Positions 20,099 through 40,460 of a stretch of DNA of 40,460 nucleotides are shown here, one piece after another; the stretch's first letter is position 1; each line of letters opens with the position of its first letter. A program made the position numbers and the translations under genes. The DNA is from Magnetococcales bacterium DCbin4 (GTDB lineage: Bacteria; Pseudomonadota; Magnetococcia; Magnetococcales; UBA8363): positions 1 through 40,460 of the forward strand of contig PEAN01000033.1 in assembly GCA_002753735.1 (NCBI GenBank), read 5' to 3'. The notes beneath the pieces are model-generated. The model was not told the origin of the DNA. It did not search any database and was given only the letters and a program-made list of their open reading frames with translations.

Positions 20099-20134
20099 AA
20101 CTGGTATGAACGGATGTCAATTCCATTGATATCT

Positions 20135-20445
20135 ATTGAAAGAAAAAAGGGGTCTGGGGGATTGCCCCCAGGGTGTTGATTTTGATTTTACAGCCCCCAC
20201 AGGGGGTGTGGGGGACGAAGTCCCCCAGGTTTTGGTTTTTGTTTTGATTTTGGTTTCATCTTTTCCCAACAAATCCGGGAAATTGCCTCCAAGGTGCTCG
20301 TTTTGATTCTGATTTCAGGATGAGTCCCTTCGGGGAAAGAAAAAAATAAAACCTGGGGGACTTCGTCCCCCCCCTGTGGGGGCTGTAAAATCAAAGTCAA
20401 AATCAACACCCTGGGGGCAATCCCCCAGACCCTTTTTTTTTCAAT
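20135..20445. repeat. Inverted pair of dispersed G/C-hairpin repeats
   Basis: The left arm (20135-20233) and right arm (20348-20445) are inverted copies of each other, about 95% alike over almost 100 bases, around a 114-base centre. Each arm has the order: A-rich tract, GGGGTCTGGGGGATTGCCCCC hairpin region, a (TTTTGA/CTTTGA)n spacer, a CCCCCACAGGGGG hairpin and a GGGGGACGAAGTCCCCC hairpin. The arms differ by one six-base spacer unit (CTTTGA) and by four bases (TGTG) before the last hairpin. The whole occupies the gap (20099-20485) between the W-rich gene and creA. The right arm ends about 40 bases before the creA start. Confidence 0.85.
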
Positions 20446-20485
20446 AATTTTTTTGAATGTGAACAGTCCCTGGAAGGGGTATGTC

Positions 20486-22595: not shown

Positions 22596-22654
22596 ATCGT
22601 AATGAAGTTAAGGTTAAACGTGCCAAGTTGGGGATGCGAAGTTTTGGTCATCAT

Positions 22655-22793
22655 GATTAAGAAAAAAAAGGGGTCTGGGGGATTGCCCCCAGGGTTTTGA
22701 CTTTGATTTTGACTTTGGTTTTGACTTTGATTTTGTTTTTACATCCCCCACAGGGGGTTTGGGGGACGAAGTCCCCCAAGGTTTTGACTTTGG
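22655..22793 (+). repeat. Dispersed G/C-hairpin repeat with an expanded TTTTGA/CTTTGA tract
   Basis: This is a copy of the element at 20135-20233 in the same orientation, lying in the gap of about 380 bases between the ROK kinase and the diguanylate cyclase. The G5/C5 hairpin (CTGGGGG, ATTG, CCCCCAG) is followed by eight consecutive hexamers at 22695-22742 (mostly alternating TTTTGA and CTTTGA). Then come the CCCCCACAGGGGG and GGGGGACGAAGTCCCCC hairpins. A degenerate trace (GGGGGATTTCGTCCTCC) lies at about 22826-22842. The rest of 22596-22977 holds no recognisable gene. The elements could terminate the upstream transcript. Confidence 0.8.
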
Positions 22794-22977
22794 TGATCGA
22801 TCACAATCATAAATAAAGAACATTGGGGGATTTCGTCCTCCATGTCCCTGTTTTTTTTGATCGTTGCCAAAAGCGGGGGGATCTGAATGGTTAAACGACG
22901 CATTAAATCATACTTTGGAGTTGGTCTTCATAGGGTTCAATATTTATTTTAATTGTTTTTCCTGAGGCTCAGAGTTC

Positions 22978-31255: not shown

Positions 31256-31339
31256 CGAATACGTCTGCTGCTCCATCAGATGAATCGTCTAGAGTTACGT
31301 CGCTGTCGCTACCGTTCAAAGGTCTTATGGTTTTCCTTT

Positions 31340-31490
31340 GTCACATTCATTAATCAGGAATGATTGACACTCAAAAAATCAATGAAAGAGAAAAGGGGTC
31401 CGGGGGATTGCCCCCAGAGCCTTTTTTCTATCGATATTTTTATACATATCAGTTAATTGCCAGTCATCCTCCCCAATTGATGAATCTGAC
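31340..31490. repeat. Compact palindromic element with imperfect terminal inverted repeats (MITE-like)
   Basis: The left end GTCACATTCATTAA (31340-31353) and the right end TTGATGAATCTGAC (31477-31490) are inverted repeats matching at 12 of 14 positions. The centre carries the family hairpin (CGGGGGATTGCCCCCAG, about 31401-31417) within an AAAAGGGG...CCTTTTTT context. The inverted right flank aligns without gaps for about 70 bases with the element at 40372, with roughly a dozen mismatches. It lies downstream of the PhoB-like gene (stop at 31517) and of the small membrane protein gene. It lacks the hexamer spacer and the second and third hairpins seen at 20 and 22.7 kb. Confidence 0.75.
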
Positions 31491-31516
31491 AAAGTAGAAC
31501 CAGTATTCGATCCTGT

Positions 31517-40288: not shown

Positions 40289-40371
40289 ACGGTTTTCGGG
40301 GTAGTGTCATGGCGCGTGGGGTGTTGCCGCCGCACCGAAATAGGCGGATACGGAACAATTACTTCTACTCC

Positions 40372-40460
40372 GTCACATTCATTAACTGGAGAGGATGGCT
40401 GGCAATTGACTGATATACATAGGAATATTGAAAGAAAAAAGGGGTCTGGGGGATTGCCCC
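40372..40460 (+). repeat. Dispersed palindromic repeat, cut by the window end
   Basis: It begins GTCACATTCATTAA, the same terminal sequence as the element at 31340, and runs through AATATTGAAAGAAAAAAGG into GGGGTCTGGGGGATTGCCCC. The first 70 bases align without gaps with the inverted right half of the 31340-31490 element. The rest lies beyond the window. Confidence 0.75.

Follow-up and report, generated by a model that had tools for sequence, protein, structure and literature searches.

The non-coding element at positions 31331-31499 of the window is, in our reading, a MITE that is mobilised in trans by a DDE-type transposase and has a terminator-like palindromic module, here called M, as exchangeable cargo; we give this reading as a whole a probability of about three in four. 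The window is the complete stretch of DNA analysed, 40,460 nucleotides, and forms an entire contig (C1); the draft genome to which it belongs (G000, 4.52 Mb, 148 contigs) is that of a magnetotactic-type bacterium of the order Magnetococcales. The element would be a copy of a non-coding DNA transposon with 23-bp inverted ends, termed T1, on which a DDE-type transposase may act in trans, duplicating a 4-bp NTAN target. The hairpin between these ends, bordered by an A-tract and, on the opposite side, by a T-tract, would be M as cargo, a module probably picked up by MITEs whose ends are of several unrelated kinds (the 31331 type, IS66-like and IS5-like) and seen also without recognised ends. M may further act as a bidirectional intrinsic terminator, and such behaviour would allow its copies to be tolerated or co-opted downstream of genes. 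The observations behind this reading are copy numbers, sharp ends, T1 target duplications and empty sites (mostly from the sister species G005), the presence of the same core within different end types, and a bias in position relative to genes. T1 itself is a new MITE family of a known kind; its unusual feature is the exchangeable palindromic cargo.

M is a genus-specific, high-copy palindrome. The earlier note, made from the window alone, had proposed a search of the full genome, and this search located, with up to 3 mismatches, the core of M, AAGGGGTCYGGGGGATTGCCCCCAG, at 240 places (114 on the forward and 126 on the reverse strand) and the T1 end at 137 places, with none for either reversed-pattern control; contigs of G000 often terminate within M or T1 elements, including the window at 40363-40460, and as these repeats interrupt the assembly, the copy counts are uncertain. 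With up to 2 mismatches, the core occurs in all 8 genomes of the genus, at 14 to 323 copies each, and in 0 of 53 further genomes that were searched from the order and phylum. Among the matches listed from a public genome collection, only Magnetococcales assemblies appear. Five cores described as being of the same kind (near 20.15, 20.42, 22.68, 31.40 and 40.44 kb) are all present, and their similarity is far beyond chance, although they do not represent one element.

The element at 31331-31499 is 169 bp long and lies between convergent genes. Its left terminal inverted repeat (TTTTCCTTTGTCACATTCATTAA, 31331-31353, plus strand) and right terminal inverted repeat (TTCTACTTTGTCAGATTCATCAA, 31477-31499, minus strand) are both of the T1 type, TTCTACTTTGTCACATTCATTAA, as defined by the alignment of 75 distinct ends, and differ from each other at 4 of 23 positions. 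Imperfect 14-base terminal repeats had been noted at 31340-31490; the inverted repeats are real, but they are 23 bp long and extend further out on both sides. Just inside the ends lie two subterminal parts that recur at the same place in many T1 copies, one belonging to a T1b end (TCAGGAATGATTGACACTCAAAAAATCAA, 31354-31382, plus strand) and the other to a T1a end (inner sequence TTGGGGAGGATGACTGGCAATTAACTGATATG.., 31433-31476, minus strand), and these enclose a short form of M at 31383-31432. A second T1-type element at 40363-40460 (plus strand) consists of a T1a end and the left arm of M and is ended by the end of the contig; it corresponds, in inverted orientation, to the right half of 31331-31499, in agreement with the inverted alignment first seen from 40372. 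A Pfam scan of the main open reading frames of the window revealed no transposase, as had been stated before.

T1 ends were counted at 138 places in G005, 64 in G002 and 44 in G001; where G005 and G001 could be aligned, their identity is about 91-95%. The copy at 31331-31499 has no visible target duplication (flanks ATGG/CCAG), which counts against our reading. Among seven complete T1-M elements in G000, six match at 3 or 4 of the 4 flanking bases: three have perfect TTAA on both sides (L255, L256, L257) and three agree at 3 of 4 (L169, L244, L254). At the site orthologous to 31331-31499, six sister species retain both flanking genes with a shorter gap and no element, the gap sequence being too diverged for base-by-base alignment, and in the seventh the site is broken across contigs. 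The orthologous stretch in G007 (L195, between 9697 and 9947) holds a hairpin of another sequence, GGGGGCGAAGCCCCC; next to it comes AGGGTTTTGATTTTTG, similar to the inner side of M.

The T1 ends of G005 bound a homogeneous 153-bp element with many near-identical copies (L284-L303; e.g., L286:501-653), which looks recently active. Exact 4-bp NTAN duplications (TTAA, TTAT, TTAG, CTAT, CTAA, ATAA, ATAG, GTAG and GTAT were seen) flank 19 of the 25 T1-ended elements read in this genome, and a further three match at 3 of 4 bases. For two elements, the flanks joined without one duplication align gaplessly to uninterrupted repeats (L287 against L298, 62 bp at 97%; L284 against L275, 62 bp at 95%). 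Inverted ends with NTAN duplications, together with joined flanks that recreate uninterrupted DNA, identify T1 as a MITE. The small non-autonomous element proposed from the window, as opposed to mere terminator-like sequence, is therefore borne out by sharp ends, by 137 places in G000, by the 4-bp NTAN duplications that flank complete copies and by gapless empty sites; common sharp boundaries and shared flanks were found for T1 ends when copies were aligned.

In the place of M, the interior of the 153-bp element in G005 holds two inverted CGTCATCCCCGCGAAAGCGGGGATCCA-type hairpins. Matched by eye to the published description (PMC3733652), these appear CGTC-1-like; a CGTC-1 REP has a CGTC tag, an 8-9-bp stem, a 4-base loop and a CCA tail, and forms head-to-head dimers (PMC3733652). 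One end type thus carries different palindromes in different species, CGTC-like hairpins in G005 and M in G000, and M in turn occurs in several end types. A further end type (TAAACCGCAGC.. / ..GCGGTTTA) with CGTC-like hairpins inside was seen nested in T1 elements of G005 (L298, L299).

M has a defined architecture. In the loci first read, all 34 pairs of cores less than 800 nt apart are inverted and converging, with starts 72-426 nt apart, which argues that the full unit is a palindrome with one core hairpin in each arm (long form). An alignment anchored on the core, with 78 copies from G000 and 124 from relatives, gave the core consensus AAAAAAGGGGTCTGGGGGATTGCCCCCAGGGT, which has neither a GTAG nor a CGTC tag, and set the edge of M at AAATTATTRAAAGAAAAAAG, about 20 nt outside the core, where conservation drops to background. 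The short form, as at 31383-31432 (no strand assigned), consists of an A-tract, a GC hairpin and a T-tract, folds at -25.6 and -24.1 kcal/mol (z -3.5 and -3.8), and would be the remnant expected if both arms joined at CCCCCAG. The long form at 20130-20447 (no strand assigned) is a palindrome of about 318 bp with 283 nt between the outer edges of its two inverted core hairpins; four repeat pairs and its fold (z -21.5) support it, and it contains nested interior hairpins (GGGGGACGAAGTCCCCC). The cores near 20.15 and 20.42 kb, previously counted as separate copies, are its two arms. In Rfam this palindrome (20.2-20.4 kb) attracted only microRNA-precursor matches far below the cut-offs, which we take as palindrome artefacts. 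The second GC hairpin, GGGGGACGAAGTCCCCC, recurs as a module in the interior of long forms and is seen in the window at 20176-20241 and 22727-22792; other interiors hold runs of the hexamer TTTTGACTTTG or an ACGCGCC hairpin.

The surroundings of the window copies differ. The ends described earlier, of the T1 type, are found on the 31.40- and 40.44-kb copies only. Neither edge of the long form at 20130-20447 has a T1 end; by its right edge lies a weak IS5-type (T3-like) end, GGGACTGTTCACATTCA (20454-20470, minus strand), which clustered with typed flanks and is of low confidence. In the 22.68-kb copy (22650-22875, plus strand) the left core is intact and the right arm degenerate, and at the right edge of this copy a pattern match identifies an IS66-type (T4) end, TTAACCATTCAGATCCCCC (22876-22894, minus strand). 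The five cores therefore have module M in common, but they do not belong to a single element with a single pair of ends.

The same picture was obtained across the genomes. On about half of the copies, recurrent end types, each with a sharp outer edge, follow beyond the edge of M: T1, T2 (CAGGGCAATCGCATTTGAAAT), T3 ((TA)GGGCGTGTTGACATTC), T4 (GTAACCGTTCAGACCCCCC) and T5 (GGCTCTTCTAGCGTTAAATGTGGG). Of the copies in G000, 63 of 126 have a typed end in the 130 nt upstream of the core, as do 84 of 145 in relatives; the counts in a control stretch further out are 0 of 123 and 8 of 144, respectively. M is found between at least three unrelated end types, namely IS66-like, IS5-like and the 31331 type. 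The T4 ends resemble the 25-bp inverted ends, GTACCCGTTCAGACTCCCC, that lie 1.8 kb apart around an IS66-transposase gene in G000 (L220, C146), an element with no target duplication seen. T3 ends bound a 425-bp relic (L151), seen in a different family of the order, that contains the beginning of an IS4/5-family transposase (PF13340, E 1.6e-14). The family with terminal inverted repeats that had been proposed from the window exists, then, in the shape of T1, but its hairpin core is a palindromic module shared among several end types and found also without them. Somewhat short of an even bet, in our estimate, is the broader proposition that palindromic hairpin repeats with no transposase of their own ride inside MITEs of unrelated transposase families and are exchanged between them.

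A source of transposase for T1 was sought in the draft genomes. The search of these drafts, in which multicopy insertion sequences collapse, yielded no autonomous element with T1 ends, and this also counts against our reading. The unpartnered T1 ends at L056, L098, L174 and L178 revealed no recognisable transposase when their open reading frames were read. Two candidates were rejected: loci of an IS701-type transposase have no T1 ends, and the element of an ISAzo13-type transposase has other ends, TAAGGAGCC.. G007 has what looks like a complete ISAzo13-type element (L307, C237), with ends of 31 bp around TAAGGAGCC, and relics of its transposase were seen in G000, G001, G002 and G005. No owners of the T2 and T5 ends were identified in the genomes examined; ISL3, considered for the T5 ends (GGCTCTTCTAGCG..), is absent from the five genomes searched for it.

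A rival reading makes M an independently mobile hairpin unit, similar to a REPIN, that prefers to insert in the middle of MITEs, the typed ends being those of old MITEs that received it. We consider this rather doubtful. The untyped half of the copies keeps the same sharp edge at -20, which argues for independent mobility of M, unless unrecognised ends hide among them; bare T3 palindromes of about 45 bp exist without M, T2, T3 and M are nested in this order in L113, and two inverted hairpins with a variable spacer are the arrangement known from REPINs (PMC3116915). Yet target duplications at the edges of M are no more frequent than in shuffled pairs (56 elements), and sites with and without M in G003 and G004 differ by replaced stretches of 47 and about 97 nt, with no clean insertion, two results that speak against independent movement and also weigh against our own reading. 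Nor is any transposase linked to M. The mixed ends of some copies, another difficulty for cargo carried by MITEs, could have arisen with mixed interiors by recombination between the M palindromes of different MITEs, so that end-swapping would outweigh movement of M itself. Among 23 pairs of ends within 600 nt, same-type pairs dominate (T3-T3 8, T2-T2 3, T4-T4 3, T1-T1 1) and 8 are mixed, although M is absent from two T3-T3 pairs, those of L178 and of the L151 relic, and a few pairs may be due to chance. Other sites compared between G003 and G004 have M in both or M with different flanks, and the differing flanks at one gene pair would suit such recombination. Nested insertion followed by deletion could give the same pattern, however, and nesting was seen repeatedly (besides L113, T5 in T1 in L190 and T4 in T1 in L256); we regard predominant end-swapping as unlikely.

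Two further explanations dispense with MITE cargo altogether. The earlier note had pointed to IS200/IS605-type or RAYT transposases, and a REP/BIME system moved by a RAYT would account for high copy number, extragenic position and inverted doublets; full-length Y1_Tnp genes do occur in G003, G004 and G006. We find it very improbable. G000, with its 240 core places, has a single degenerate Y1_Tnp fragment, and G002, with 69, has no such gene in a genome that is 74% complete. The Y1_Tnp loci inspected in G000, G003, G004, G005 and G006 have no core in their vicinity (about 1.5 kb or more on each side where the contig allows), the core has neither a GTAG nor a CGTC tag, and T1 ends, in contrast to IS200/IS605, come with target duplications. 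The fragment in G000 (L031, C26) is RAYT-like and lies downstream of an apparent group II intron reverse-transcriptase fragment, with no M nearby. Ordinary intrinsic terminators with a shared sequence, homogenised by gene conversion and involving no mobile unit, would fit the terminator-like folds, the position near the 3' ends of genes and one site at which M is present in both G000 and G004, without IS66-type ends in the former and with them in the latter. This explanation is extremely unlikely: flanks are shared beyond the hairpin up to sharp outer edges, orthologous sites without any M exist, the repeat is restricted to one genus, and for the T1 copies the target duplications and empty sites contradict it.

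Our preferred reading, MITEs with M as cargo, also assigns a terminator function to M, and this part deserves separate consideration. Gene context was analysed in 0.74 Mb (16% of the genome), a sample partly chosen for holding cores, with a simple ORF-based gene caller and for gaps of at least 100 bp. M occurs in 47 of 235 such intergenic gaps and four cores lie inside called genes; occupancy is 17 of 40 for convergent, 27 of 137 for tandem and 3 of 58 for divergent gaps (convergent versus divergent, p = 1.4e-5). In tandem gaps, M is closer to the upstream stop than to the downstream start in 17 of 27 cases, which is not significant (p = 0.25). Between 19900 and 23000 of the window there are 13 terminator-like sites, against 4.4 expected from shuffles, and both strands of M are matched; the short M at 31.4 kb is terminator-like on both strands by folding, and on the minus strand alone by the consensus scan. 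Judged by sequence, folding and position, M fits a two-way intrinsic terminator. Against this part of the reading, the position bias also fits selection against insertion upstream of genes, as such bias was interpreted for pneumococcal repeats (PMC3049150). A mobile element with its own two-way stop signal would be a plausible low-harm insertion next to genes and could seed new terminators.

The findings in G005 bear on a wider question. CGTC-tagged REPs are widespread and were reported without a dedicated transposase, and their movement by a broad range of transposases was left open (PMC3733652). If hairpin repeats do ride as cargo, this would show concretely how CGTC REPs could spread; CGTC-1-like dimers lie here inside a MITE with exact target duplications and, if this is general, the movement of REP cargo by ordinary transposases becomes a testable question.

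T1 resembles the bacterial MITEs RUP, NEMIS/Correia and MITEAba12 (PMC10969869, PMC2229807) in being short, non-coding and intergenic, with inverted ends, a target duplication and high copy number, and in being apparently moved in trans. Unlike in those families, one palindromic core is common to unrelated ends, and one end type holds different palindromes according to species. BOX elements of S. pneumoniae (PMC3049150) are likewise modular repeats with variable middle modules, but, compared by description, the outer modules here are IS-type ends. With REP/REPIN sequences (PMC3116915) and GTAG/CGTC repeats (PMC3733652), M shares the character of high-copy extragenic hairpins forming inverted doublets with variable spacers, and some REP dimers sit within palindromes, the CGTC-1 dimers of Halothiobacillus neapolitanus being reported within one of 41 bp (PMC3733652); its core differs in having neither a GTAG/CGTC tag nor a linked RAYT, whereas the T1 ends of G005 do hold CGTC-1-like dimers. 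The nearest functional analogue of M is SPRITE. The terminator-like dispersed repeat with which M was compared, by description, is similarly enriched between convergent genes, placed near gene ends and nested with other repeats, whereas M is symmetric, with an A-tract and a T-tract, forms short and long palindromes and resides inside defined IS-type ends.
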